A stretch of 49,865 nucleotides of DNA, from assembly GCA_004565275.1 (NCBI GenBank), contig SDOX01000099.1, positions 17,278 through 67,142 of the forward strand. Reading direction: 5' to 3'. This document shows positions 2,335 through 44,607 of this stretch, piece after piece. The notes under the pieces were generated by a model. It saw nothing but the letters and a program-made list of their open reading frames with translations. It was not told the DNA's origin and ran no database searches. Positions within the stretch are counted from its first letter, which is position 1, and each line of letters opens with the position of its first letter. This DNA is from Nannochloropsis salina CCMP1776. Its lineage: Eukaryota; Sar; Eustigmatophyceae; Eustigmatales; Monodopsidaceae. The translations under genes were made by a program, and so were the position numbers.

Positions 2335-4743
2335 ATGGTGCAAGCAAAAGACGGCGTAATAATGGAGGGCGAGAGTCATGAGGTACGCTTGAAATTGAAG
2401 TACACAATACCTACGCAGGGGTCGCCGTCCACCTTCTTTAATGCAATGCTTGGTGATCTTGTTTCCTCCCTTGAGTCTCTCGGAGAGACGCCTTTTTATT
2501 CAGCGTGTCACGCGTCTCTGTCCTTAGGTCATCATTGTTGGGGCGGGAGTTGCCGGAATGGCCGCAGCCCACACGCTTCGACAGACGTACAACATCCACG
2601 ACGTGATAATCCTGGAAGCGCGAGGACGAACCGGGGGGCGCGTGCATACGAATAAAGAGGGTATTGACGAAGGTGCCTCCTGGGTCTATAGTCCCGAGAA
2701 GCATGGGTTGGTTCAGGCTGTGGGGAAAGGAATAGGAGACGCACGGCTGGTGCAGATCGCAGACCCGACAGACACCGTGAATTGCACGGTGGAGAACGCA
2801 AGAATGAGGGTATGGGATGCCGTCACAGGGGAAGAAGTCCCCAGGGAGGAGGTGCGGGCAGGGGAGGAGAAGTTCAACGAAATCCTCGGGCGGGTGGGGA
2901 AGGAGCTACAGGCGGGTGAAGGGGGGGAAGGGGGGGAAAGTCTGGAGGCAGCTTTGCTTCGAAATGCAGAAGGGCAGGTAAGAGGGGCGACGGAAAGGAA
3001 GCAGGTCTTGAAGTATTTGGCGTTTTGGAATGCGGTCTTCCACTGCCCTTCCCTTCCTTCCCCCCTAACCCCCCCTCCTCCCTTTCTTCCATCTCGTTTC
3101 CCACGACCCGGTCCTCCCTTTCGCAGGATGCGACTGCTCTGTTCCGCTGGCAGCGCGCACGGTTCGAGGGGTGGGTGGGGGGAAGTCTGGGTGCGGTCTC
3201 TAGCCGGGAGGCAGACTCGTTCTACGGGCACGAGGGCGGGCATGAGGGGCGGGACTGGTGCCTTCAGGGGGGATATGGGCCGATGTTAAGGCGTCTGGAG
3301 GCAGGGGCAGGGGACATCAGGCTCAATGTGGCGGTCAAGGAGGTGGTGCTGGAGGTAAGGAGGGAGGGAGGGAGGGAGGGTGGGTGGGGGGAAGACTCTC
3401 CAGGGTCATCGAAGGTCTGATTTCCGTCAACCTCCCATCCACAGGGAGCACCGCCCCCCTCCTCTTCCTCAGCCTCGCCCTGCTCTGTCCTCCTTCGCTG
3501 CGTTTCCACCAGCGACCCATGCACGTCCTCCCTCGTTTCCTCCTCCTCCTCTTCCTCTCCCTCCCTCCCTTCCCTTCGCGCACGTTTCGTGATCATTACT
3601 GTCCCCCTTTCCGTTTTGAGCGGGCCCAAGGCTTCCTTGACGTTTCAGCCGCCGCTGCCGGTAGAAAAGACGAAAGCGATGGGGAAAATCGGCGTCGGTG
3701 TTTTCAACAAGGTGGAAACGGCGAAAGGGAGAGAGGGGAGGAGGAAGGGAGGGAGGGTTGGAGGGAGGGAGGGAGGGAGAGGGGAACGAGAAAGAAATAC
3801 AGTGGGTTTATAGAACAAGCGTTCTCGTTCCTGAGATTGAGATGAAAAACAGACAATATTTCTGCTCATCTGGCGGTAGAAATAGGGATGACAGGGGGCA
3901 GATGAGGGAAGCCATGAGTAACAACGCGACGTCGCTTAGCACCCTCGATATCTGTATGCTCATCACCCTCGACAGGTTTTCTTGGAATTCCCTCACCCAC
4001 CCGTACCTCCGCCTGACGCCGACATCCTTGGTTTCCTTCCACCGGCATCATCTCCTTCCTCAACCCCATCCCTCTCCAGCACTTCATTGCCCCACCCGGC
4101 CCTGTACCTGGACCTCGGCCGGCTCTTCCCTCCTTCCTCCCCTCCTTCCCTTCCTCCTTCCTACCGCCTCCTCGCCCTCTTCGCCGGCGATGACGCCGAG
4201 CATTTGGAAGCATTTTCGGAGGACGCTGGGAAAGAAGCCGCTCTGCGGCCTTTGCGCGCCGTCTTTGGCGACGCGGAAAGGGGGGGAGGGAAGGTGGGAC
4301 TGCCCCCACCGAGCCGCTCGTGGAGGACACGCTGGGGGGCCGATGAATGGGCCAAGGGCAGTTACAGCTACCTTAAGCCAGGAGGGAGGATGCAGGACAG
4401 GTGCGTTATCAAGAAGGCTGTAGAAGAAAGGTGGGGCTGGGAGACAAGAGGGTGTGCGAAGGGACTTGATTCCCTGAGCGCGCTGCTGTCATGTCCCTCC
4501 CGAGGCCGGGCCCAGAGATGTTGGGGCCGCAATTCTTGCCACTTTTTTGCCGCTCACATTCCGATGCTTCCCCTGTCACATTTTCACATGCGTGTTAGGC
4601 TCGAGTATGCTAAGCCTTTGTACGACTGCCTCTTCTTCGCCGGGGAGGCCACTAATGCCGAGCATCCGGCCTGTGTGGATGGGGCTTACGTAAGCGGAGT
4701 GCGGGCGGCGAGGGTGGTGAAACTAGCGACAGAGAAGGGATAA
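2335..4743 (+). CDS. FAD-dependent amine oxidase, polyamine oxidase / LSD1-like family
   Basis: Six exons (2335-2382, 2528-2977, 3127-3354, 3445-3711, 3976-4400, 4599-4743) give a 520-residue protein with every intron phase matching. The N-terminus has the Rossmann FAD motif VIIVGAGVAGMAAAHTLRQ (residues 17-35), followed by LEARGRTGGRVHT, the second FAD/GG motif. Further on are FVIITVPLSVLS, KIGVGVFNKVFLEFP, the aromatic motif GSYSYLKPGG and the C-terminal FAD signature FFAGEATNAEHP...GAYVSG. Order and length fit flavin amine oxidases that oxidise polyamines or similar amines and release hydrogen peroxide; the exact substrate cannot be told. No signal peptide is evident and the C-terminus (EKG) is not a peroxisomal PTS1. 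Odd feature: exon 4 begins with about 45 residues dominated by Ser and Pro, an insert not normal in the family. It may be a true loop or an intron boundary I placed too far upstream. ATG 2335 is the only in-frame ATG after an upstream stop at 2281. Confidence 0.88.
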
Positions 4744-17861: not shown

Positions 17862-20174
<2,313 letters not shown>

Positions 20175-20671: not shown

Positions 20672-22369
20672 ATGTACAAAAATGTCATCCCTCCGGGCGG
20701 GAATGCGAGCACCAGCGGAAGCGTGAGACAAGGCACGATAACAAACAAGATAAAAGCCATCGTGTATGACCTTGATGGTACATTGCTAGACACCGAAAGC
20801 TTGTCTACTGAGGCCATTCAAGCCGTCGTCGGGGCGTACGGCAAGACTTTCACTTGGTACGTGTTTCCACATGGAAAAAAAGGGAAATTTTATGAACAAA
20901 TTCAGAGAAATAATATTAGGTTCGTCTGTTTTATTGCAGGGAGACCAAAAAGAAGATTCTTGGCATGCGCGGTGAGGAATGGGGCCGCGTAGTCGTCGAT
21001 GGTACGTGTCTAGAATGAAATTTTCATCTCCCTCCTCTGTTCTAAGATTCTTTACCATTTCTCTATCAGATCTAGGTCTTAGTGATCAAATAGAGCCCAT
21101 GATGCTCGTAAAGCAATGGGAAAGGGAACTTGAGGTTGTAACCCCGACAGTACAGGTACCTGACATCTCCCAACTATGAATTAACACCACCGCACATGAA
21201 GTTATTGGTCTCCTCTCGTCCTTCTGTGTCATCGTTTTTCTCAACATTTTATCATTATCGATATGTGTCGCCCAAAAAAACAATTTTTCCATCGGTGGAA
21301 AGAATTTTCTGTTTTCGTCTCGTGGCAAAGGTGTTACGCTCGACCGCGGATGCCGAGCAAATAGTCTTTTCTACATTGCTTCGACCCAGACTTTCTTCTA
21401 CAATAGATAGCTGCAACTATTCTCGCATGACATATTCGATACTATTCTATTCCAGTTGTTGCCAGGCGCGAGAGAGATAATTCAGTTCTTCGACTCCAAA
21501 GGTCTTCCTCAAGCGATAGCCACGTCCTCCTCCGCCTTACTAGTAGCGCACAAGCGCAGACATCACGAAGCTCACGTTTTTGGAAGAATGCGAACGATAG
21601 TGACGGGAGACGATCCCAAGGTGAGGCGATAAATCGAGAGGAAAAGACCGGGAGGGGCCTCCGAATTTGTTCCACACATATCCATCGTCGGCGTGTCCTC
21701 TCTCGTTTCCGCCATACTTGCTTCCCTTTATATCCCTTCGCTTCCTTAGATTGTCCGCGGTAAGCCTGCCCCAGACATCTACCAGGAGGCGGCTCGACGG
21801 TTGGGAGTGGCCCCGGAGGAGTGCTTGGTCTTCGAGGATGCGCTGAGTGGAGTGAGTGGACGGGATGGGGGACAGCGTGCGGGTGGACGAGGACAGGGAC
21901 AATCTTTTGTTCTTGAGAGCACTTTCTCCCGCCTACCTATTTACTATTTGTTGTCCTCTTCCTATTTCTTGCTCTCTTTAAGCTCCACGTCTATAATTAG
22001 CCAACTTTTCCTTGCAATGTATTTTCTTCATTTCATAAGGTGTTGTCGGGAAAGGCTGCCGGTATGTTTGTGGTAGCAATTCCAGATCCGCGCCTTGACG
22101 TGGCCTGCTTCCAGGCGCATGCACATCAGGTTTGTCAGGTCGGACCGTGTCCGCTTTATGGCCACAAGAAACGACGATGATTGCCGCAACGGTGGCCTGC
22201 AAAGACCTTAAAGTATCTGAAGCAGGTTGTAGGATCATTATGCATTCATATTCATGTTCTCGATATTCTCCTTCACTTGGATTTGCAGGTCTTGAAAAGT
22301 TTAGATTCTTTTGATCCCCGAAGCTGGGGATGGGTGGAGGACAACATCACGTTCTCCACGATTCAATAG
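20672..22369 (+). CDS. HAD-superfamily phosphatase, pseudouridine-5'-phosphatase (HDHD1/GPP)-like
   Basis: Seven exons (20672-20856, 20940-21001, 21070-21155, 21456-21620, 21750-21851, 22040-22129, 22289-22369) join in phase to 256 residues. All four HAD motifs are present: motif [16 protein letters not shown] (Asp33 and Asp35 as nucleophile and acid/base), motif II IATSSSA, the motif III Lys in [12 protein letters not shown], and motif [11 protein letters not shown]. The helical cap lies between motifs I and II (residues about 45-115). The ending [15 protein letters not shown] resembles the C-terminus of HDHD1-type sugar-phosphate phosphatases, which dephosphorylate pseudouridine 5'-monophosphate or related small phosphates. 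The precise substrate is not decidable from sequence. ATG 20672 follows a non-ATG open stretch. No targeting signal is obvious. Confidence 0.88.
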
Positions 22370-23705: not shown

Positions 23706-26700
23706 ATGCTAGACCGGTCTAAGTCGCCACTTTATCCGCAGCGTTGCCTGACGTGGTGTGTAGGGTTCGCTGCGGCGGCCGTGCTAGGAGCTCAGGCATT
23801 CGTCCCCCCTTCCCCGTCAACACCATCCCAATTACCGTTGGGAAACTCCTGTCAGAAATTCAATTCTCCACTTCTGGCCTACCGCGATGCATTCAGTCAT
23901 GGAGATCAACGCTCCTCCGGCGGCAACACCCGCAGTAGCGGAAGAAGCGAGCACGGCGATCGGCATTACGAGAGGGAATCCATCAGTAAAGAGCTGGGCG
24001 AAAGCGGTGAAAGCACCCGCAGGAGCTCGAGCGCAAATCTACCCTTCCTGAGCAAGAATCCTGAGGACCTTGGTTCCACTGCATTACGAGAAAGTCCGTC
24101 GCTATTCAAGCTACGGAAGCACGGAGGCGGACCTGAGTCCTCTTTCCCATCCTCCCGCTCCTTCTCCTCCTCAACGGCGCCCTTGCCGCCCCTGGAATCA
24201 CTTGCTGGTGGTGTTCCTGGCGGATATTCCACAGCAAGCAGTAGAGACCCGCCCCGGTAAGTATAGGGAGTGTCGAGGCGCCACGATGCAACATTCATCC
24301 TCACATTCCCTCCCGCGTCCTCCCCCCTAGTCCTTCTCCTCCCTCCAACGGACGACGGGATTCATGCTCCCTCTCTCCGGCCTCGTTGGCCGCTGCCATC
24401 CACCAGATCGTCAGGGTGCGTTTCTCTTGAAAACATTCCCCTCCCTACCCTCGTTTCACCTCGCGTCGCACCTAGGCTCCATTTCCTCCTGTGTACGTCG
24501 CATCTCAGCCCACCGTTTCTCCCCGACTGTCACTAGGAGTTAACGACCCCACCCAAGGGTCCTGGGGCGGCATCACCCGAGGCAGCAGCAAAAAGGCTCA
24601 AGCAGAAAAAGGTGAGCCAAAGAGAAAGGGACGTCAGGGTGAGGGGACTCACGACACGTTCAGGAAGAGGACGGGGAGAGGGAGAATACCGTGCCGTCTC
24701 GAAAAGGGTCAGGATTCCAACGGAATGACGGATGAGAGAGTAGCTGTCTCCGCTCCATTCTCTTTATCTACGGCTCGTTTCCCTCCTGCTCATCAAATTA
24801 TTCTTGTCCACGCGCTCAGCTCATGGAGAAGGAGCTCGGAGCCCTCTTGGCAGTCGCCGAGAGAAACGCGGGCTACCTCTCCCCTGAGGCCGTCACCACC
24901 ATCATCAACGCGCTCTCCAAACTCCCTCCCCGGTGCGTTTCCCGGACATGAAGAGATAAGGCCATGCCCGATGTGACTTTGATCGAGACCCCGTCGTCGT
25001 AGCGGTGGTGGATGTCGAAGTGGTGACGTACGATGTGCGACATGACAACTGCTTATCTCGAACCACATTGTAACGTCCCGGACGTAACTCTCCACCCATC
25101 AAATTCTTCTCTTCTCGTCTCCCTATGGTCCCCCTGCCCCTTTGAAACCGATATCTGCAGCGGCCTGCGTAGTGTCGTCCCTCTCTCCGCCTCGTTCCGT
25201 CCTCTGCGCGAGAAGCAGGAGAAAGAGGAGAGCGGGGGAAGAAAGAAGAACCACGTTGCCGAGGTGTTCGCCGTGGCGAAGGGGGAGGTGAGCAAGGAGG
25301 CACATGGATAGTGAGGGCAAAGGAGAGGGAGGAGGTGACGTCCTGTCAGACACGGAAACGGTGACGACGACGCGTAGGAGAGGGGAGGATCTTTTCATTG
25401 CCTGTGAAAGAAAGGGAAGACAAGGCGGGAGAAGCTGGAGGAGGACGGCGAGTGTAGAGGATGGCGGCAATGACATGCCGGGAGGATCGTGTTCGTTTCT
25501 CATGGGCGCCTTCGCCTCCTCGGTCCACAGGCCTGGCCTTCCCCCACCGTCTCGCTCCTGCCCGCCCTCCTCGCCCGCGCCCTGGAGGTCGTCCACGACA
25601 TGTCCCCCAGGTAGGTGTCTCGTCCTTTTCCCTTTTTGCCATCCATTTCAACCGCCTTTCATCTCTCACGCCCATGTCGCCTCGTCCTCCTCCTTCCCGC
25701 CGTCTCCGTCTCCCTGCCTTCAGGTGTGTTGCCACGACCGTCAACTCTTTGGCGCGCTTTCGCTCCTCCGTGGCCCCGTTCTCGCTCCCCATTCCTCCCT
25801 ACTTGCTCACGGGACTGAGTACGCAGGTGAGAAATTATTTATTATAGATCCAGGATTGGGTGACCGGGAGAGGAAGGGGGGACGGAGGGATGGAGGGACG
25901 GGGAGGGCTCGACTGATAGAGGGGACAGAGGGGAGAATGACGCGGTGGAGTCGGGAGGGAATCGAAGGATGGCTGGGTCTGACGGGACGCATGACACATC
26001 TTCACTTGTACGCGCAGGCGCAGAGATTCTTGGTCAAGGAAGAAGAGCGTGGGGAGGCAGGAAAGGAGGGGGGGAAGGGAAGGACGAGGACAGGCAGCGG
26101 AAGGGGAGGCGGCTTCGACTCTGGCGAGCGTTTCACCCCGCAAGGTCTCTCGAATATCATCAATGGCTTTGCACGTTTAGGTGAGGAGAATATTGCCTCT
26201 ATATTCCCCTCTGTCTTCTCCCTTGGTCCTCCCCTGACGCCTCACCTCCCCGTCCCTCCCTCCCTCCCTCCTTCCCTCCCTGCGCAGGCTACCACCCGGG
26301 ACGTCGATTTCTGGAGCTCTTTTGCGAGGAGCAGCTGAGTATGATGGAGGAGTTGGGCCCTCAGGTAAGGCAGGGACGGGGAGTGAGAGGGAGAGAGCAG
26401 GACCGCGAGCAAGTCGATCGTCTGGCGAGCGCGCGGTGTGTCTTCATGACACGTGTAGCACGCCGCAGAGTGCCCAAGGTGCCTTTCCCTTCTCCCTCCC
26501 CCTTCCCCCTCTTCCTCCTTCCCCCCGCCCTCCTCTCCTTGCTTCCATAGAACCTGGCGAACACCATCAACGCACTGGGCAAGCTCGGCTTTCATCCGGG
26601 TACCCGTTTCCTCGAACGCATCGCCGCACGGGCCGAGGATACGCTGCCAGAGTTCAACACGCAGGTTTGTGAATCGGGCACTGTGTCCTCCCTTGCCCTC

Positions 26701-29700
26701 TCTCTCCTTTTGCCACACCCTCGCCCGTTTTGTCTCCCCCTTTGGATACCCGGACGATCCCCCTCCCGACGCAGTCCATTTCCCTTCCTCCGTCCAGGGC
26801 CTCTCCAACATCATCAATGGCTTCGCGCGCCTCTCTCCCCCCTTCCACCCCGGCCCTGCCTTTTTGGACGCCCTCCGCGACGCCTCCTTTCCCTGCCTGC
26901 ACGTCTTCGAGTCTCGAGGCTTGGCCGCTCTTGCCCACGGGTACGTACGTGAGCTCTAGCACTCCTTGTCCGAGATGGCCCTCCTTGTCCTAGATGGCCC
27001 CGTCCTGCGGGCCTCCATCCTTCGTCCCATCCTGGGTATGCCCTGGCTCACTGGGCCCGCCCTCCCCCCTGCCTCTCCCTCTCTCCCCTCTTCCTCCCCT
27101 CCGTCCTGCCAGCTTCTCCACCTTGGGGCACCACCCCGGCAACGAGTACCTGGACGCGGTGGGGGAGGCCATGGGGCGGCATCTGGAACGGGCGTCGGAA
27201 GGACGGTAGGTGCCCCCTTTCCTGCACCCGTCCGTGTGGCGGGTCGCCACCCGTGGCCCCTCCTTTCCTCGCTCGACACATTGACGTCTGCCGCACTCCC
27301 CTTCTCCCTTCCTTCTCCTGCCCTTTCAGCGAGGGCATGACGGGGTGGACGCTGTCCACGCTCTACAATGGCCTCGCTCGCCTGGACTGGCGCCCGGGGA
27401 CCAACACCCTACGGGAAATGGGCCAAGAGGTGCGTCCCTTCTCTCTCCCGCTCCCTTCGTCCGTTCCCTTGTCTGGCTCTATCGTTCTTTTACACACACA
27501 CCCTCCCCCGCCCCTCCTCACCGTCCTCCCTCGCCCGCCCTCCCTCCACCTGACAGTCCAAATGGAGCCCCTCGCTGCCCCCCACTGAAGCCGCCGACAC
27601 CCCCCATCCCATGGGAGGCGACGCTGCCGACGCCATTACGGACCTCTCGGGTCTAGATTGGAGGGCCCCATCGTCCACCTCCCCTTCTTCCTCGGGAGGG
27701 GATCGCGGGAGGGAGGGAGGGAAGGGGAGGAGAGAGCCGACGGGGCAGCGACTGTGGACGTCGACGGCGGCGTGGCTGGTGGCACAGGGGCAGGGAGAGA
27801 CCCGATGGGGGGACGTGCTGGAGCCGCAGCAGTTGACGCAGGTAGGCGGGAAACGAATGGGGAAGAGAGGGGAAGAGAGAGAGTGTGTATTGATGGACAG
27901 GGAGGGTGCTGACATGGAGTGAGCGAGCCGGTGGGGAGGCAGAGAGCCAGGCAAAGAGGGAACAACAGGGGGTGGGTGCATGGGGAGAAGGACGCGAGAA
28001 CGTCCCGCCGGCGTCTTTCCCATTCAACCTGTCTCCTTCTGTCCTTCCCCCCTTCCCCTCTTCCATCCTCTAGCTCCTGTGGTCTCTGGCGATCATGGGC
28101 CCGCCCGTGGAGGCCGAGGGCCTCTTTCGCCGCCTCTTGGGCTCCGCCATCGCCCGTCTAGGCTCACCCTCCACCTCGCCCTCGGCCGCTTCCTTGGCCG
28201 GGAAGGGTCGGGCGGTGGACTGCGAGGACGGTGATTGCAACGTGGTGCCCGTCCACGCGTTGAGGCAGCTGCGGCAGGTGCGGTGGACAAGGGAGAGGCG
28301 GGATCAAGGACCTGGGGAGAAGATATTTCTGAAACCTTGTCTTGGAGTGACTTGCCGCGTGCTCATGGTCTTTATCCTGGTTTTTTTTGGCCCTGCTCCT
28401 TTTCCTTGTCGTCAGGTGGCACGCTTCGTGGAGGTGGTGCTGGGATGGGAGGGAGTGGAGATGGCCGTGGGCGGTTCCCCTGAGGCGGACAAGCTGGACG
28501 AGATGAAGCAGCCCACAGCCTCGTCCCTCCTGCACATGGTGAGAACGGGGGGGGGGCAGGATAAGGGGAAGGAGGGAGGGCATAGAAATGGAGGGAGAAG
28601 ATACGGGGGCCCGTGAGGACGCTCGCTCACCGAGTGCACGTCTCTTTTCACAGGAGGTGCTCCGCCTTCTCTGCAGAGATCTGGCTGCCTACGATGCCCG
28701 GACGGTAAGCCCGACGGCCGCCCCCCTCGCTTCCCTTTTCCGTGTCTATCCCTCACGCCCGTTTCTGACCGCCTGCTTCCTACGCTCCAGGAGGTCGACG
28801 ACGGGGTCTACGTCCAGGACATTGTGCTGATGCCGAAGGCAGCCGGTGTTTCCGGCGCCAAGCCCTCCCTGCCCCCTCCCCTCCCCGTCATCGTGGAGGT
28901 GGATGGCCCCCCCCACTTCTTCAACAATGTGCCTCGCCGGTCCCGGGGGGACCACAAGCTTAAGGTGGGTCAGGGGGCGGCGAGGGAGCAGGAAAGGGGC
29001 ACGTAATGCGGGGGGAGGGCGCAGGAAACTGATTAGTGAGGGATTCAACGAGGGACAAGCGATTCGCAGCGCGGGAAAAGGCTGCCGGTTTCTATCGTGC
29101 GCTCTCTGCGCGATCATTCTTCCCACATGTTCCTTCCTCCCTTCTTTCCTCGACGCCCCTCTCGCGTGCCCGCCCAGGCCCGCATTCTCGAGGCGCAGAC
29201 GGGCAAGAAAAACGGCGGCGTGGTGAGTGTGACCTGGTGGGAGTGGGTGTGTCGCACGCGGAGGCAGCGGACCAGGATGATGGTGCGAAAACTCGTGGAG
29301 GTGGGCGTGACCGATCCCTCCTTGTACTTGAGGGGCGTTGCGGCGCTATCTTTGGAAGGTGAGGAGACGAAGAGAAGAGGGTAGAAACGGGAGGCGAAGG
29401 GGAAGAGGGACAGGGACGGGGGTCAAGAGGGATTAATCATCACTCGGGTGCACTAGAGCGAAATTCAGCCACAAGCCTGTCTCGATCTGTCATCCTTCAT
29501 TTCTCTTCTCTCATAAGTGACCCTTCATCACTCATCTTTCTTCAATAATCCACCAACAGAGGAGGCTGAGGAAGAAAAAGAAGAGTTTGTGGAGGCGTTG
29601 AGCTTCGAGGGCGAAGACGACGAAGGGGAGTGGATGAGGTACGACAGAGCCCTTCATCAAGGGCAACGGAGGAGCGTAGGTCACGGTTGTTGACAACCCT

Positions 29701-30189
29701 AACCCCAACCTTACGGAAGGAAGAAAATTTGCGTGATGTAGAAAGTAGGATAGTGGAAAGGAAAGGACTCTTCTGGTGACCAATCCAATCGCCGCTGCTC
29801 GACCCTCACCCCTCTCCTTTGTCCTTTCTCCCTCTTCCAGCTACAGCGATGACGAGGACGATGAGGACAGTGAAGCTGCAGATGGCGGGCTCATCCAAGC
29901 CAAAGCTCGATCTCTCCTCCAGCAAAAACAAGAAAGGCCTCAGTCTATGATTATCTGGGGTAGGGAAGATGGCGGACACCTTTACAACGCGCCATCGTCC
30001 GCCAGGCTCTCACCGGAAGGGTTAGGAGCTCGCATCGAAAGCGAGGAGGAATCTCTCTTGTGGTCGCTCACAGTGCCGGAGCTGAAGGCAAAATTGAGGG
30101 AGAAACGCCTTCCCGTCTCTGGGGTAAAGGCGGCTTTGGTGTCGCGTCTGATGAATGTCTTGGAGGCAGTGGAAGAAGGAGGGACATAG
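23706..30189 (+). CDS. Plastid-targeted helical-repeat protein with RAP and C-terminal SAP domains (organellar RNA factor)
   Basis: About 21 exons; first 23706-24256, then 24331-24415 and 24476-24611; last ones 28791-28964, 29178-29358, 29560-29638 and 29841-30189. The start encodes a signal peptide (CVGFAAAAVLGAQA) followed by FVPPSPSTP, matching the heterokont plastid motif with cleavage before Phe, and then a Ser/Arg-rich transit region. From about 24.8 to 27.5 kb come repeated helical units such as LSNIINGFARLGYHPG, LANTINALGKLGFHPG, LSNIINGFARL...FHPG, FSTLGHHPGNEYLDAV and LSTLYNGLARLDWRPG. These are OPR/HPR-like repeats of RAP proteins. The RAP domain follows: VIVEVDGPPHFFNN, HKLKARILEAQ, VVSVTWWEWV. 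A SAP motif ends the protein: LTVPELKAKLREKRLPVSGVK. RAP proteins act on organellar RNA processing or stability. Middle exon boundaries (exons 4-7) are approximate. Confidence 0.85.
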
Positions 30190-31109: not shown

Positions 31110-34100
31110 TTACCCTCCTCTGCCGCTAAAGTCGATCAAATTATCGTCGCCAGGGCGCTTGATACGGCTGTTGAGACGGATAATGTGATTGCTGTGGCTG
31201 CTGTGGCTGCTGTGGCTGCTGTGGCTGCTGCTGTGCCGGCTGATACTGAGGTTGCGCTGATGGTTGTTGCCAAGTTCCCCACGACTGCTGCGGCCGTGGC
31301 TGCTCTCGAACCTGCTGCTGTTGCTGCGACTGCTGCTGCAAGAAAGAAGAGAGGTATCCCAGAGTTTGGTTTTCTTCGCTCGTGCGTCCAGATGCCTCTT
31401 GTCCTCGCCCATCCGACAAGTTTCCAAGAAGGCCCAGCCCCCACGGCTGCGGCTGCTGACTTTGCACCGCGGAGGACTGCGTAGGTGCCGGCGGGGGCGG
31501 GGGGGGGGAGGGGGCGGAGGAAGAGTGCTTGAGAAAGACGGAAGCGAGTGTGTTTGCTGTTGCGGTTGCTGCTGATGTTGCTGCGGCGTCTCCTGCTGCC
31601 GGTGGTAGGCGCGAAGCATCTGTTGGGCGGTGCCTGGGTCGACGGCAGTGGCGACTGACTTGGGAAGCCCCAAGAGGGTCATCAGCTGAGAGACCGAAGC
31701 GTCTACAGGTGCCGCCGGTGGATTCGGAGGGACTGCCGGGGCGGTGAGTTGCGGGGGCGGGGGCTGAGACTGCGACGCTTGATGAGCCTGGGTGGGGTAT
31801 GCCGCGCTGTATCCCCCAGGCGGGTAGGAGGTGGGATGGGGTTGAGGTTGAGCTTGGTGGCCAGACGATCCCCCGGGCTGGGGTTGAAGGGGATCATAGC
31901 TTTGAGAATAGCTGGTAGAGTAAGCGGTGGAGGACGGCGCTGCGGTCGCCGGCGGTGGAAGGTGCGGTGCAGGTGCTGGAGCATGTCGGGAAGATTCTCG
32001 CGAATCGCTGCTGGGCGCGAACGATCGACCTCGATACCCCTCCCAGTCCCTGTCTCTCCGGCCGCGATCTCCCCAGCTCCCTTCACCCCCTTCGTAGTGG
32101 TGGCTGCCCTGTCTGTGCCCACTTTCCTTCTGTCGATGCAACTCGAACGCAGGCGCCGACGTACTGGTGGCTCCGGTTGACCGAGAGGAGGGACCAGGCA
32201 CCAGGGGATGTTGCGGGATGGCATGACTTGGCCTGGATGCTGGGGGCGAAGAGGGTGCGGGCGTAGGAGCTGACGCTGACTGGTATTGGCTGTAGGCTGG
32301 CGGGACTGTGGAGGGTTGGGTTGAGTACGCGTGGGACGCAGAGGGGTAGCCGTGGTAGGACTTGCTGGTAGGGGGGGCATTGGACGGAAAGCCGTGCGAG
32401 GACCGGGGGGGAGATTGGCGGTGAGGCTGCTGCGGCCCCATGTGCGAGGGCTCATGCTGGGAGGAGGAGGGCGGCGGGGCGGAGGAGGTGATGGGCTTGA
32501 TCTGTTCAATCGCCTTCGGAGGGGCCCTAGGGGGAGGAAGAAGGGAAAAGTGTCAATTTACACTCCATGATCTCCTGTCTCCTGGACCACAACGCACGAA
32601 CACGAAACAGGCAAGGCCTCCGCCTTTTTACGTTCCTCGTCTCCACTTACGATGCCATCCGGTCCAGCAACTGCTGCTCCACGGCCAGCACGGTGGCCAG
32701 GGGCCCCGTCAGCATCACGGGTCGCTCGTCGTAGGTGCGGGTGAAAGAGGTCTCCTCCTGCAAGATCTTCACCAGCACGCCCGACGCGTGCAGCTCCCGG
32801 ATGAAGGAGCCGCCCTGGCATGCGCGCGTGGGCCGAGGCGAGATCAGAGATCGAGGAAATAGAGACAGCACCCCCCCGCCCCCGGCCCCCTCCCTCCCCC
32901 CCCCATCCACCCACCTTCCCGATGACGTGGCCCATAAGCGGGACGGGCAGTGAAAACTTGATGGTCACCTCCTCCTCCTCCGCCGAGGCCTGCATCCCCA
33001 GCTCCTCCGCCGCCGCCTCTGTCAGCGCCCTCTCTGCCCGCTCCTTGCTCTCCTGCATGCGCCACGCGAAAACCCGCTCCCGCACGATTTCCCGCGCCGC
33101 ATTGATCTCCTGCTGGCCCCCATCGAGGACGATGGACGTCTCGTTCGAGCCCATTTCCGTGTCACCAATCTAGGGAGAGAGGGGTCGAATGAGGAAACCG
33201 AGGGGCACGCGTGGGCCCGCCAGAGCGTCGCTTCGCTCCCTTCTCCTTTACTGTCCCCCTACCTTGGCCAACATGACGCGGGCGCCCGTCGTCTCCCGCA
33301 GTTCCCGCATCCGCGCGCCTTTGGGGCCCATGAGCATCCCCACAGCGCGCACCGGTACCTTTACCACCACTGCGTCCGGACTGAAGCCCTGGCCGAGGAG
33401 GCCGAAGTAGTGCCCGCCCACCTAGAGGGAAGGCGGGGGGGAGGGCGGGAGAGAGGGGGGGGAGGAAAGGTAAGAAAGAGGATGGTGGAGTTACGAGGGA
33501 GAGGGGGCAGTGAGGGGATTCTTCAAGCACGCGCCGCGTCGTGTGGCTTCTTCTTTCGGGTCAAAGAACCACGAGAACGGTCAAAATAATGATCAAGCAA
33601 GACGCGCACCTTCTCTCTTATGAGGGCCAGAGCCTTGTCTCGCTCGGCCTTCCGGCCCGTCACGTAGACTGCTCGCTTCTGATGGCGGCTGGGAGGGAGC
33701 TCCTCCTCGTGGCCGAGGCGAATGCGAGCGCCCGACTCGCTGCTGATGTGCGCGAGGGTGGCACCCCGTTTGCCTGGATGCAAGGAAGGGAGGGAGGGAG
33801 GGAGGGAGGGAAGGAGGGAGGGAAGGAGAAAGGAACGAGGGGAGGGGAGAGAAGGGTGTCAATGCTTGCCAAAGCCTAGTCGAGTGAACACTCCCCATGT
33901 ACTGCTCAGAAAGCGACACGAGTCCCCGCGCCGGCAAGACTGTCTACACCACCCTTCAATCTACCTCGCGCTGTCCCTCCTACCCTCGCCTCCCCCCACT
34001 CCGGTCATCCCTACCGATGAGGGCACCGCCCAGCTCGAGCGGGATGCACCATTTGACCGTGACGCGAGGATCTGAGCCTGGAGGAGGGTGAGAGAGAGTG

Positions 34101-38927: not shown

Positions 38928-39097
38928 CGCTTTATGTCATAAATGACGCGAGCTTATGTTTGTGTTGCAAATTATATCCTGGTCGCGTACCCGATAAGCT
39001 TGATCGAGCTGGGTTCTCTTTGTATACAGGTGCCCCAACATTACCCGATCACGTCTCAGTCCTTTACATGCCTCCACCTACATACAGAGCACAAAAC

Positions 39098-42095
39098 ATG
39101 ACATCTCATTACATCAAAGTGGCTTTTATTATTTTAGCCGTCTTTGCCTTGCAAGTCGAGTCTCAAACCGCCAGACTTCCAGTGCCACAACGATCGCAAG
39201 GCCTTAGCGGAGAGCCTCGGCTCCCTAGCAGGTTGGAAGAACTCGTACATTCGACCCTTAAGCGATGCGGTAAAAGTTGTCAAGATCAACGTGGCTCTTC
39301 TTTTCGTAACTATTTTGCCAAGCTTGAGAAGTTCCCCGACTACAGTAGGACGGCCTCTGAAGAAACGGCGATCAATGTAACACGTGATGATACTTTTCTT
39401 CAGCGTGATTTGCTTCTGAAACGACGAAAAGGAAAGAGGATCAGCAAGAGAAAGCTCAAGAAACAGCTCCAGCAGTGTGAGGCAAGCCTTCAGGAGACGC
39501 AGGTTGCCTTGGAGGCCCCAAGACTTCTGTTTGTCCAAATGGCGCAACACTGCACTTTGGAAATGACAGCCGGACGATACTACCTTCGCACTACAGATAT
39601 GGATCCAGATACCTACGTTTTTGCAGAGATGCCGTCACAATACGCCACTGTCTGGCCTACGAGCTATTTTGTCGGGTACCTTTTTGATGAGTTTTTTCCC
39701 ATCGAAAAGCCCAATGCGGCTTTCACATTTAACGTCTATCGGAACGAGTCCGAGAATTCATTCGAAGGGCCACTCATATCTGTTGTACTATCATCACACC
39801 ACATGAGTCTCCAAGAGGACAACTCGTCGCTTGTCGTCTACGAGCTTGGTCAATCATCGGACCAGGCAGAGACCTCCCCGCTGTCTAATTTCTTCCGGGG
39901 CGTCGATCCCATTCAAAATGCGTCGGTGACGTTTGAGCATTGTTCCATGTTCATTGATCCTGCGGTTGATGACCGTAATATGATGTCAACCGAAAGCTAC
40001 GTGGCTGCGCTGGAGTCCGTCGACCAAGTTCTGGACGACCTCGAAAAGTCCGCCAATGCTATTGAGCAAGGTCTGGCGGGAGTCCAAGTATCAAGCGCGA
40101 ATCAAAGCATGTTGGAGACATTCAGTAGGGTGTGGCAGGTCAAAAATAGTGAGAAAAGAATTCAAGGTGATCCTGATTCAAGTGCGTCCTTGAAAAGTGC
40201 AGCGGACACGCTCCGTGCGACTGCCAATCTGATCAGACAGTGCAAAGATAGCTCAAACGGCTGTGATAACCGCGCCCTCGCAGCAAGCGTATCGAACATA
40301 TTGCTGACCACAGCACCTGTGATAGGGGCCGCGTTCTCTCCGGTGGGTGTAGGCGTCTCGTTGATATCGTCAATAGGGCACCTCTTGTCCATTTTGGCCT
40401 ACGACTTACAAATGCAGTCGAATAAGGGTCTTCTTCCATCTTTAATCCAAGAGTTCGTGATTATGAAATTCAAAACCTTCGATCTCATCTTTGATACCGA
40501 TCTGAGGAGGCTCTTCACGGACTTCTGGTTAATGGATCTTGACAACGTCATCAGACATTCTGGAAGCATCGGTTATATAATTAAGAGGATGGGACCAGAT
40601 TGCCAAGCATCTGTGGACAAGGAGGTAAGATTATCAGATGCAAACAGAGACCTTGAATACAAACTACGTATTTGTGTTCTTATCCTTTTTATCCTCTCGG
40701 GCATGAATTTTCGGGCCCCCAAATGAGATTTCGTCCTCAACGGTCTTCTTAAACCACACGGAACGACACTGACAGGTTGACAGTTGGTATCATGAAGCAT
40801 TTTCTCCCTCATGGAAGTCGACCTATGAGCCCGCTTTGATTAAAATTGAAGAGAAGTATGCAACTGCGTTTGGCCGCAACACGAATGGACGCCGACACAA
40901 AGTGAACTCATGGATTTCGGAATCCGAAGGCATGTGCGCGTCGATGTCGGTTGACTTTATCAAAAATGGCAAAAGCCGTTTAGATTATTGTAAAAAAAAA
41001 CTCGATGACGGTAGGAGTAAATGGCAGTCTCTCGAAGATTTCACGAAGGCCTACCTCACCATGGCAACGAAGTTGATCAGCTTTGCTTCGCAAAGCATTG
41101 TGATTATGCAGACTTCTTCACATTGCGACCCGAAAAAATATGATCAGAATGTGATCAACGACAAATGCAAGTGGAAAAGCACGATAGACAATTTGCTTAC
41201 TAAATCCTTCGATACTCAAGGGCGTGCGTTATTTTTGTCAAAAGCCATGCAAACGCTTGACACGGAATGCAGCCCTACAGCAGCTGGATGGCCATTCTCC
41301 CAAGTTTGCTCCGAGGCAAAATGTAACTACAAATTCGCCTTGATGCTGGAAAAAGATTCCTGGAAACAGTACTTCGGAAGCCTGAATGAGGAGGGAAAAT
41401 ATGTAGTTCTGAAAGAATTCCGGAGTGACAATACATACGTCTATTGTAGTGGTAAAGCTCGTGGGGACCCCCTCCCGGAAGGATGGCAACCAAAAGGCCT
41501 TACTGCCTTTGCCCACGACTGGCTTGGGGATCATTATGTGCAAGGCACTTGCGAGGAAGTTCAGAGCTACTATTTCAATTTCTGGAATGATTACCTGTTT
41601 CGAGCGATGTATGGAGCCGTTCCGAATTTCGGTCTCATACAGGACTTCCCTAAATGTGCGGCGCTTATTAATGATGTTACTCTCTGGGATCCACATTCAC
41701 AGCCTGAAGGATCACTCAAACGCTATCCTTGGCATCTTAAATGCAAGGGCGCCCCAGACTCGTACTATCAAATTGGTCCCGACGAGAGCGAGCAAGCTTG
41801 CTGGAGGAAATGCTACTATGAGGCGAAACTCAAGCCCACTTTTTATTTCAGTGTGATTGAAACATTCCCAGGGATTGAAAATTTATGCCTCTGTCATTCA
41901 ACTTGGTACGTGATACAACGCGGACTCAGGTGGCGACGACACATGTATACTCACGTGGTAATGCCTTATTTTCGTACCCCTTCAACGATGCAGTGACATT
42001 GAGTACAATAGACAGAGCTTCCTCTTTGCAGCGCTAACGCCTCCTCCAAAGTAGGCTCTTCTTCCTTTTGTTCTATTTCGTCCTTTCCTCTATAA
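39098..42095 (+). CDS. Large predicted secreted protein of unknown family
   Basis: Exon 1, 39098-40624, joins exon 2 at 40776 in phase (donor GAG|GTAAGA, acceptor CTGACAG). Exon 2 either runs to a stop at 41996 (915 residues) or splices at 41905 to 42032-42095 (906 residues). The second option replaces a Trp by Cys and fits the Cys pattern better. The N-terminus is a clear signal peptide (VAFIILAVFALQVESQ). Next come a basic, probably coiled-coil segment (KRRKGKRISKRKLKKQLQQ), NxS/T glycosylation sites, and helical stretches with QVLDDLEKSANAIEQGLAGV. A central long hydrophobic segment follows (residues about 395-435: NILLTTAPVIGAAFSPVGV, VSLISSIGHLLSILA). Exon 2 is Cys-rich, ending in CKGAPDSYYQIGPDESEQAC, CYYEAK, CLCHST, a WSC/PAN-like Cys spacing. 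Composition is AT-richer than the genes to the left. I do not recognise the family. Confidence 0.72.
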
Positions 42096-42867: not shown

Positions 42868-44607
42868 TTAGGACGACTTCACGCCGGCCCACTTCCGCGC
42901 CAGGTGCTCTCCGAACGTCAACGGACTCGCTTCCCCGCCCTCCCCCCTCGTCTCCTCGCTTTCCCCCCGCAGAGTGTTGTATTCGTGTCCTTTCCCTCCC
43001 CTCCCTACTTCTCGCCTCTCCTCGCGTAACCCCTCCCGCCCCGTAGCCGGCATGGGTGTATCATAGGAGGGGTAGAAAAAGAATACGAGAGAGGTCCGAT
43101 CCCGGCTCGGGGAGAGCGTCACCCTGTGGACAGGTGAATGGAAGGGCCGTCTCTCTCTTTCGGTCCCTCCCTCCCTCCCTCCCTCCCTCCCTCTTCCTGC
43201 CCGGGCTTTGCCCTCAGCAACCAATCTCTCCGAAAGCATGGCTAGAAAATCCCCGCAGTTCACGATCAAAGTTTCCGCCACCCACGGCACTCTCACCCAC
43301 TCCATCTCCTCTCCCTCCTCTCTTGCTCCCACCCGCGCTCCCTGCGGCCGCCCTCGAAATTGCAGGCCTCCCTCCTCCTCGTCGCCCTCCTCTTCCCCTG
43401 TCGACTCCTGTCTCTGCTGGAGGATGATGGTGAACAGGCCCCAGTCCGTGTGAGGGCTCGAGCCCAGTGCCCGAGAGGGAAGGACGGACGGAGGGAGGGA
43501 AGAGGACGACATGTAATGGAAGGCACGGAGGAGGGAGATGCGTTCCCCACCCTCCCCGCTCGCTTCCTCTAGCCAGCCTTCCTCCCTGCCCAGGGCGAGA
43601 GAGAGGGCCCGGCAGAGGGCCCGGCTGAGGGCGATCATGTCCACGAAGAAAGCTTGCATTTCTTCTCTAAAGGCCGTCCCTCCTTTCCCGGTCCCGCCCC
43701 CCCGGAGGGCAGCGAGGGCAGTGGAGGACGTGGGCCAGACATTGGGACCTTCCAATAGGTTTTGAGGGGAGGGCGAGGGCGAGCTGGCTCTCCTTGTCGC
43801 GACATCGGCTCTCTCCCTCTGAAACCATGCGGAACCGGCCGAAGGGTCCCTCACCCCTTCGCTGCTCCCCTCGTCCCCTCCGTCGGCAGACTCGTAACCC
43901 ATGCTGAAGCCCTCCTTCCACTCAATAAATTGTCCCTTCAACCCGCTTTCTCCCAAGACAGGAATGTAGCCGCGTGAAAAGCCTTGCGAGTGGATGGAGG
44001 GCAGGGCCTCTTTCTCTTGCAGGGGCAGAGCGAAGAAGGAATCGATGGCATCCAAGACGCGAGGATACGATGGAAAATTTCGACGGTTAATAGGCCCGCA
44101 TGCCTTCATGCACGTGTGGTCCATTGCTTCTTTGCTGTCGTCCGTCTCCGCTGCCACATCTTTCTCCGTTGGGCTGTCGGACGACCTCGATTTCCCGGCA
44201 CCGCCACTTGCTGTTCCTATATCAAAGCACGGGGCTGGTCCTGCCACTCTTAGACCATCTCGTGTCCGAAGCCATCCTTTATAGTCTAGGAGAAAGAGAC
44301 CATCGGTCTCGCAGGCCTGTCGGAGGGCCTGCACAGCTGCTAGCTTCGCAACCTCACTGGGCGAGGATGAAGGCAGGAACGGGACGAGATCTACCCGGAT
44401 AGGTGTCCATACTGATGAGGTTATGCTTGAAGCGGTGGATGCACTCATTAGAAAAGGAGCGCCTGCATCTCTATTTGTTAAAACGAAATAGAAGGCACCG
44501 TAGGAAAAATCGCAGAGTACGCCGGGTCGCCTCGATAAGATCCGATACGCCGTGGTCGAGGCACTCACCACTCCGAGGTGTCCAAAAGGCACCAAAACTT
44601 TTCTCAT
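42868..44607 (-). CDS. 2-oxoglutarate/Fe(II)-dependent dioxygenase (isopenicillin-N-synthase-like), intronless
   Basis: A single uninterrupted exon of 579 residues on the reverse strand. The N-terminal DIOX_N part includes PIRVDLVPFL, ALRQACETDGLFLLDY, FPSYPRVLDAIDSFFALPLQEKEAL and SRGYIPVLGESG. The jelly-roll core has SSPHTDWGLFTIILQ, giving the HxD iron ligands, then VNCGDFLAMLSERLVA. The distal His is in SPVHRVTLSPSRDRTSLVFFF, with the RxS 2-oxoglutarate anchor. The ligand triad is therefore complete. The substrate is unknown; relatives oxidise small metabolites. Inserts of low complexity (EEEGDEEEGG, GREGGREGGTERERR) interrupt the fold, the latter encoded by a GGGA/CCCT tract of the type seen in local introns. 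An alternative start at the internal Met of MSASTASS is possible. It is GC-rich and intronless amid AT-rich surroundings. Confidence 0.85.
   Translation of the reverse strand: MRKVLVPFGHLGVVSASTTAYRILSRRPGVLCDFSYGAFYFVLTNRDAGAPFLMSASTASSITSSVWTPIRVDLVPFLPSSSPSEVAKLAAVQALRQACETDGLFLLDYKGWLRTRDGLRVAGPAPCFDIGTASGGAGKSRSSDSPTEKDVAAETDDSKEAMDHTCMKACGPINRRNFPSYPRVLDAIDSFFALPLQEKEALPSIHSQGFSRGYIPVLGESGLKGQFIEWKEGFSMGYESADGGDEGSSEGVRDPSAGSAWFQRERADVATRRASSPSPSPQNLLEGPNVWPTSSTALAALRGGGTGKGGTAFREEMQAFFVDMIALSRALCRALSLALGREEGWLEEASGEGGERISLLRAFHYMSSSSLPPSVLPSRALGSSPHTDWGLFTIILQQRQESTGEEEGDEEEGGLQFRGRPQGARVGAREEGEEMEWVRVPWVAETLIVNCGDFLAMLSERLVAEGKARAGRGREGGREGGTERERRPFHSPVHRVTLSPSRDRTSLVFFFYPSYDTPMPATGREGLREERREVGRGGKGHEYNTLRGESEETRGEGGEASPLTFGEHLARKWAGVKSS

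Follow-up and report, generated by a model that had tools for sequence, protein, structure and literature searches.

An OPR-RAP protein with an acidic linker and a C-terminal SAP domain predicted in Nannochloropsis salina CCMP1776

A stretch of 49,865 nucleotides from Nannochloropsis salina CCMP1776 (contig SDOX01000099.1, positions 17,278 to 67,142; hereafter the window) contains a gene whose predicted product carries an OPR array, a RAP domain, an acidic linker and a SAP domain in one chain (Table 1). This architecture, in a single predicted protein, is well supported. A sequence-only reading of the window had already described a plastid-targeted protein in which RAP is followed by an acidic linker and a SAP motif, with the start codon at 23706, RAP exons at 28791 and 29178 and SAP in the last exon from 29841. 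These positions proved right, and the linker and the plastid-type features of the presequence were likewise recovered. However, the OPR array that makes up the body of the protein had been overlooked, and the protein is therefore not merely RAP plus SAP. Judged from its domains, it is a putative organelle RNA factor of the OPR-RAP type, extended by an acidic linker and a SAP domain. Comparisons within the species were made against the 26.5-Mb, 103-contig genome that holds the window, and statements from the literature rest on excerpts of the papers cited.

Gene model and domain architecture

The splice sites of the 21-exon model were picked by eye from the reading frames and lists of candidate sites. 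Its start is the earliest ATG of a frame that opens slightly upstream, and the last base of the stop codon is 30189. Codon log-odds were trained on five paralogue frames versus introns 1-18 of the window gene, and splice-site matrices solely on introns 1-18. Only in exon 3 did the model frame fail to score highest of the three forward frames; it led in the other 20 of the 21 exons. Exons 20 and 21, which continue the protein beyond RAP, scored 0.51 and 0.19 in the model frame, and the remaining five frames of each, over both strands, were negative. The donors of introns 19 and 20 were the top two among 28 GT sites between 29300 and 29960, and of the 59 AG sites in 29370-29960 the acceptor of intron 20 scored highest. 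The join of RAP, linker and SAP in one phase-consistent model with a single stop is thus supported by intron phase, by the codon scores of exons 20 and 21 and by the splice scores.

The start of exon 20 is uncertain, because an alternative in-frame acceptor at 29517, which would add 14 residues to this exon, slightly outscores the acceptor used at 29559 (3.9 vs 2.1). Skipping of exon 20 was considered: its 79 bases are not a multiple of three, and exon 19 joined to exon 21 loses the SAP frame. Derivation of SAP from a neighbouring gene is disfavoured, the next long downstream frame (31110-32552) lying on the minus strand and the exon-21 frame having no Met before codon 67.

The last exon (29841-30189) carries the SAP domain. 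Pfam PF02037 matched it in the whole protein with 38.0 bits against a cut-off of 23.9 (E = 1.2e-9), a value that rules out a chance match, and with E = 1.6e-10 when the C-terminal 202 residues were scanned alone; the motif recognised from the letters is therefore borne out by the family profile. In the PDB the SAP domain of MKL1 was a weak sequence neighbour at E = 0.068, and that of yeast Tho1 at E = 0.3. When the last exon was modelled alone, helices were predicted at exon residues 78-86 and 97-111, the places expected for a helix-extended-helix motif, with a predicted local distance difference test (pLDDT) score of 73-81 for the block. The roughly 60 residues past RAP, amino acids (aa) 941-1000, have a net charge of -21, and the SAP domain, beyond a further stretch, one of +3. 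By analogy with its family, this SAP domain may bind DNA.

A profile built from the four paralogues L069, L062, L065 and L061, from which the window protein was excluded, gave the RAP region 84.0 bits; L068 and L070 fell outside the pattern used to pick rows. RAP is divided between exons 28791-28964 and 29178-29358. Pfam RAP scores also vary among the paralogues (L069, 24.0 bits; L062, 17.2 bits; L068, 54.8 bits), L068 being closer than the window protein to the canonical RAP model. On these profile scores the window RAP appears to be real but divergent. The RAP core alone had one match among PDB sequences (E = 5), and tblastn of the RAP piece against plasmids gave none. As RAP has been described as a probable endonuclease (PMC8635915, PMC13126933), a nuclease-like role may be shared by the window domain.

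The position of RAP in the chain is unusual. Among the species compared, about 91% of RAP domains in proteins longer than 200 aa are C-terminal (PMC8190603), in line with what had been assumed in reading the sequence. In the window protein RAP is not C-terminal, 225 residues separating EVDGP from the end, whereas 71-133 residues lie between the RAP DGP motif and the stop in six paralogue open frames, any of which could be followed by a spliced tail (L064, L066 and L067 are not among them).

Five repeats, FTPQGLSNIINGFARLGYHPGRRFLE..., LGPQNLANTINALGKLGFHPGTRFLE..., FNTQGLSNIINGFARLSPPFHPGPAFLD... and two further, lie in tandem within aa 417-608. They were scored with a hidden Markov model (HMM) of ten repeats from paralogues L069 and L062, chosen with a pattern of our own, and gave 30.2, 33.1, 24.9, 13.6 and 6.1 bits. 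The window protein reached 119.2 bits in total, compared with a maximum of 8.4 bits in 500 shuffles, of which 205 gave any row at all. With the same HMM, L070 reached 12.7 bits and L068 11.5 bits, and nothing was obtained for L065 or for the RAP frame of L061; a clear OPR array is therefore not universal among the RAP frames of this genome. The PPPEW motif typical of most green-algal OPRs is absent from the window protein, and CCS2 likewise departs from it (PMC8635915).

Among PDB sequences, the OPR part had matches to RESC6 of trypanosomes (E = 1.3e-6) and mL123 of Polytomella (E = 0.0014). A fold model was built for paralogue L069 with two relatives, and stands for that paralogue rather than for the window protein. 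It has a mean pLDDT of 75.9 and shows a helical solenoid, mostly with a 38-residue period, followed by a less certain alpha/beta RAP region. In the PDB its fold came closest to RESC6 (E = 8e-12), to further RESC chains and to chains from the mitoribosomes of Toxoplasma, Polytomella and Chlamydomonas. These matches also include an ATP-synthase subunit from Polytomella, with general helical solenoids lower down the list. OPR proteins take part in the stabilisation, processing and translation of organelle RNA (PMC8635915, PMC13126933), and RAP is present in 163 of 1067 green-lineage OPR candidates (PMC13126933). By this family analogy, the window OPR array may bind RNA.

Table 1. Position and basis of the features of the predicted OPR-RAP-SAP gene, in window coordinates.
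Feature	Position	Strand	Basis or description
Whole predicted gene	23706..30189	+	21 exons, 20 GT-AG introns, 1089-residue protein; phases match, sole stop terminal
Putative presequence, aa 1-31	23706..23798	+	Basic start, hydrophobic stretch, cleavage-like AQA/FVPP (GAQA then FVPP), Phe at +1
Two weak OPR-like stretches, aa 265-275 and 346-355, exons 4-7	24820..25826	+	2.3 and -2.5 bits, neither significant by itself
Array of five OPR repeats, each about 38 aa, at aa 417-608 (exons 8-13)	26132..27429	+	Paralogue-repeat HMM
RAP region, from the end of exon 16 as far as exon 19	28515..29309	+	aa 805-931 by the paralogue profile, aa 864-911 by Pfam; alignment shows motifs of DGPxH, K and S-x-x-x-EW type
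Start of intron 19; SAP-less, RAP-terminal form if retained	29359..29384	+	Open reading frame 29040-29384; few extra residues, then stop
Exon 20, acidic linker	29560..29638	+	Gene model, codon scores
First part of exon 21: remainder of acidic linker plus segment without assigned fold	29841..30063	+	Gene model, charge
SAP domain, aa 1049-1079, predicted helix-extended-helix	30064..30156	+	Pfam PF02037, 38.0 bits; 43.4 bits in genome scan

RAP and SAP loci across the genome

Ten RAP-like loci were found in the genome: the window locus on contig C101, three on C70 and single loci on C25, C35, C57, C6, C37 and C33. The weakest are those on C6 (E = 1.1e-4), C37 (E = 4.4e-4) and C33 (E = 0.0077), with the DGP motif altered on C6 and C37. 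At E up to 1 the scan gave 28 SAP matches, of which 23 exceed the cut-off, and a comparison of places revealed that RAP and SAP co-occur solely at the window locus. Moreover, a SAP-like pattern that recovered the window SAP in L012 found none in L061-L070, of which nine are RAP loci and one is an OPR locus. The RAP and SAP scans were read exon by exon, so that these counts are lower bounds and overlook any SAP domain interrupted by an intron. The ten RAP-like loci, of which some have clear OPR arrays, are of interest in an alga whose presequence motif and general look suggest a red-type secondary plastid, as the OPR and RAP papers cited here deal mainly with green algae, apicomplexans and Paulinella.

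Two features of these families stand apart from the window gene. Three RAP genes (L068, L069 and L070) lie within about 60 kb of C70 (G000:C70, 1.09-1.16 Mb), and L068 is the strongest RAP match of the genome scan. At L063 (G000:C57:371873-372559) OPR-like repeats occur in a 1014-residue open frame, and no RAP match was found there.

Three of nineteen further SAP loci have a presequence-like start in the same frame (L008, L013 and L023). At L008 (G000:C14:518736-518828, minus strand) SAP (1.7e-11) is fused to a formamidopyrimidine-DNA-glycosylase-like protein with an H2TH match at E = 6.9e-23; its N-terminal Fapy domain reached 17.5 bits vs a cut-off of 25.5. L013 (G000:C29:486758-486859) combines SAP with S1, a CvfB-like winged helix and RRM. 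L023 (G000:C78:733639-733749), which has a SAP match, resembles by eye a retropepsin-like aspartyl protease.

Targeting and a possible role at the plastid nucleoid

The start of the protein was assessed with our own hydropathy-plus-motif test, which it passed; shuffled versions of the window start passed in 47 of 5000 cases, and internal Met windows in 1 of 108. In diatoms, cryptophytes and dinoflagellates the ASAFAP motif includes Phe at +1 past the signal peptide (PMC4329603), and the hydrophobic start with GAQA/FVPP appears to be like this motif of red-lineage secondary plastids. The protein may thus be imported into the plastid.

Known OPR-RAP proteins offer the closest comparisons. Arabidopsis RAP is likewise an organelle OPR protein with a RAP domain (PMC11260468, PMC8635915), but differs in that no SAP is mentioned in the excerpts of these two papers. 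It binds plastid pre-16S ribosomal RNA (rRNA) and colocalises with nucleoids (PMC11260468), so a link between transcript handling and the nucleoid has an OPR precedent; some plastid rRNA processing steps are thought to occur around nucleoids (PMC11260468). The expanded NCL family of Chlamydomonas also has an OPR array followed by RAP, but there RAP is C-terminal, the lineage is green, and the term SAP is absent from the main texts of the sources, as excerpted (PMC8635915, PMC13126933). Import candidates of Paulinella chromatophora share RAP, organelle targeting and a 38-aa repeat, PxxxxL...FxxQxxxxxLNAxAKL, which by eye the window repeats fit; their RAP is C-terminal, their targeting signal is different and 'SAP domain' is absent from the main text as excerpted (PMC7729196).

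The FASTK family and trypanosome RESC6 resemble the window protein in combining helical repeats with RAP, but are mitochondrial, and FAST_2 was not found in the window protein. We know of no SAP domain in either. Yeast Tho1 and hnRNP U/SAF-A, like the window protein, unite SAP and an RNA-binding part in one chain, but are nuclear. To our knowledge, Tho1 and hnRNP U/SAF-A have no OPR or RAP part, and pTAC3/PAP1, a plastid SAP protein, has no OPR-RAP. The Tho1 SAP binds double-stranded DNA and not double-stranded RNA, and Tho1 is recruited to transcribed chromatin (PMC4909252). pTAC3 is given as a nucleoid protein belonging to the plastid RNA polymerase complex (PMC4080259); it is likened here to the window protein by description rather than by sequence, and differs in being part of that complex.

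No RAP-SAP protein was found among the literature matches listed, in a literature that lacks most subscription papers and does not extend to domain-architecture databases, so that a RAP-SAP protein annotated elsewhere without discussion may exist. The sole match with both 'RAP domain' and 'SAP domain' treats them, in its available text, separately as animal RNA-binding families. Among the matches listed for SAP or the plastid nucleoid in diatoms, and for OPR in stramenopiles, there was no relevant title. OPR-RAP organelle factors are known; relative to the literature searched, the addition of SAP behind RAP appears to be new.

With these precedents in mind, we tentatively favour, at a little under an even chance, a reading in which a nucleus-encoded, plastid-directed OPR-RAP protein would have its RNA-processing complex held on nucleoid DNA by the SAP domain and linker. 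The OPR solenoid would recognise a single plastid transcript or pre-rRNA, or a few of them, and the RNA bound there would be stabilised or trimmed by the RAP module. The flexible acidic linker with the C-terminal SAP would hold the complex on plastid nucleoid DNA. Tethering of this kind would allow RNA to be bound while it is leaving the polymerase. We infer nucleoid tethering and co-transcriptional action, for a plastid RNA-maturation factor near nucleoid DNA, because of the roles of OPR and RAP, the double-stranded DNA binding of the Tho1 SAP and the precedents of Arabidopsis RAP and pTAC3. The SAP fusions of L008 (DNA-glycosylase-like) and L013 (S1/RRM), with their presequence-like starts, may be taken as support from the same genome. 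Nucleoid retention of a processing factor with its own DNA-binding-type domain would be directly testable by removing about 31 residues. A more specific scheme is unlikely as a whole: a one-chain co-transcriptional factor of a red-lineage secondary plastid in which OPR would pick the nascent transcript, RAP would trim or protect it, SAP would anchor it on nucleoid DNA, and retention of intron 19 could switch between tethered and free forms. In that scheme RNA specificity and DNA tethering, apparently split in land plants between proteins such as RAP and pTAC3, would be fused in one chain.

Several results weigh against tethering by a SAP-bearing plastid protein, and they are given here with the alternatives on which they bear. 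At the level of the gene, a minus-strand frame outscores the model frame in 6 of 21 exons (2, 3, 6, 7, 11 and 17), which makes the codon test soft; the intron-19 acceptor at 29559 is weak, ranking 8 of 59 AG sites, and retention of this intron would yield a form without SAP. SAP was detected at one of ten RAP-like loci and is therefore dispensable for the usual work of the family, and scans of viral contigs and genome contigs confirmed no orthologue. The main product might be an ordinary OPR-RAP factor that ends just past RAP (because intron 19 is retained and brings in the stop at 29384, or because the 3′ end lies earlier), with exons 20 and 21 as a minor isoform or separate transcript. The retention stop would give a length like that of the six paralogue frames, and a SAP-only frame of 80 residues could begin at codon 67 of the exon-21 frame, which is its first Met. 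We regard this as quite improbable, given that the codon scores of exons 20 and 21 favour coding in the required phase, that the intron-19 donor is the best of the 28 in the stretch and that the next long downstream frame is on the opposite strand.

The domain assignments have their own weak points. Pfam PF08373 gave the spliced protein 23.0 bits vs a cut-off of 24.2 (E = 7.7e-5), so that the RAP domain proposed from the letters fell just short in Pfam and was recovered by the paralogue profile. A FAST_1 match at aa 500-554 (25.2 bits vs a cut-off of 27.4, E = 1.5e-5) lies within the OPR array and counts among the evidence for it; membership of the FASTK family was rejected, FAST_1 being under the cut-off and FAST_2 not listed at E up to 1. 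The model of the last exon is weak, with a mean pLDDT of 64.2 against 42-52 in the remaining four models, and neither Foldseek nor VIA-align gave a SAP fold match for this small model. In hnRNP U, DNA is bound predominantly via another region, with SAP acting synergistically (PMC10403129), and binding of pTAC3 to a specific DNA region is called unclear (PMC4080259). In a second alternative, the single OPR-RAP-SAP protein exists but SAP contacts RNA or protein (e.g. ribosomal particles or polymerase), so that it would act in the stroma or on ribosomes and not on DNA. The top fold relatives of L069 are RNA-editing and mitoribosome chains, the hnRNP U SAP is not its main DNA-binding part, and the strongly acidic linker could weaken contact with DNA. 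The DNA preference of the Tho1 SAP, the clear margin of the window SAP over its family cut-off and the fusion of SAP to a DNA-glycosylase-like protein in the same genome all argue the other way, and leave this alternative somewhat unlikely.

The favoured nucleoid reading further depends on the plastid as destination. The presequence test was passed by two of seven RAP-family frames, the window protein and L069, which has Trp for Phe and whose shuffled starts passed in 147 of 5000 cases. It was failed by L062, L065 and L068, although AAAF in L065 and GDAF in L068 can be seen by eye; L061 is a RAP-only frame without a gene start and the start of L070 is unclear. The protein might instead be targeted to the mitochondrion or nucleus, with the same RNA and DNA modules working there: the fold matches of L069 are mostly mitochondrial, SAP is common in nuclear proteins, and targeting was judged solely by motif and hydropathy. 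The low pass rates of shuffled starts and internal Met windows, and the hydrophobic stretch with AQA/FVPP, of the kind described for red-lineage plastid import (PMC4329603), make such a destination highly improbable.

Other features of the window

The end of a HAD-like hydrolase frame (21750-22076, plus strand; Pfam E = 1.8e-7) lies just upstream of the OPR-RAP-SAP gene. Long glutamine-rich frames occur on the minus strand at 17862-18530 and 31110-32552, the latter converging on this gene. Two long frames of 588 and 386 aa on the plus strand (38960-41996) had no Pfam match at E 0.001. A 2OG-Fe(II) dioxygenase-like frame is found on the minus strand at 42868-44607 (Pfam DIOX_N, E = 1.1e-11), and a Flavin amine oxidase fragment on the plus strand at 2558-3289 (Pfam E = 3.3e-8).

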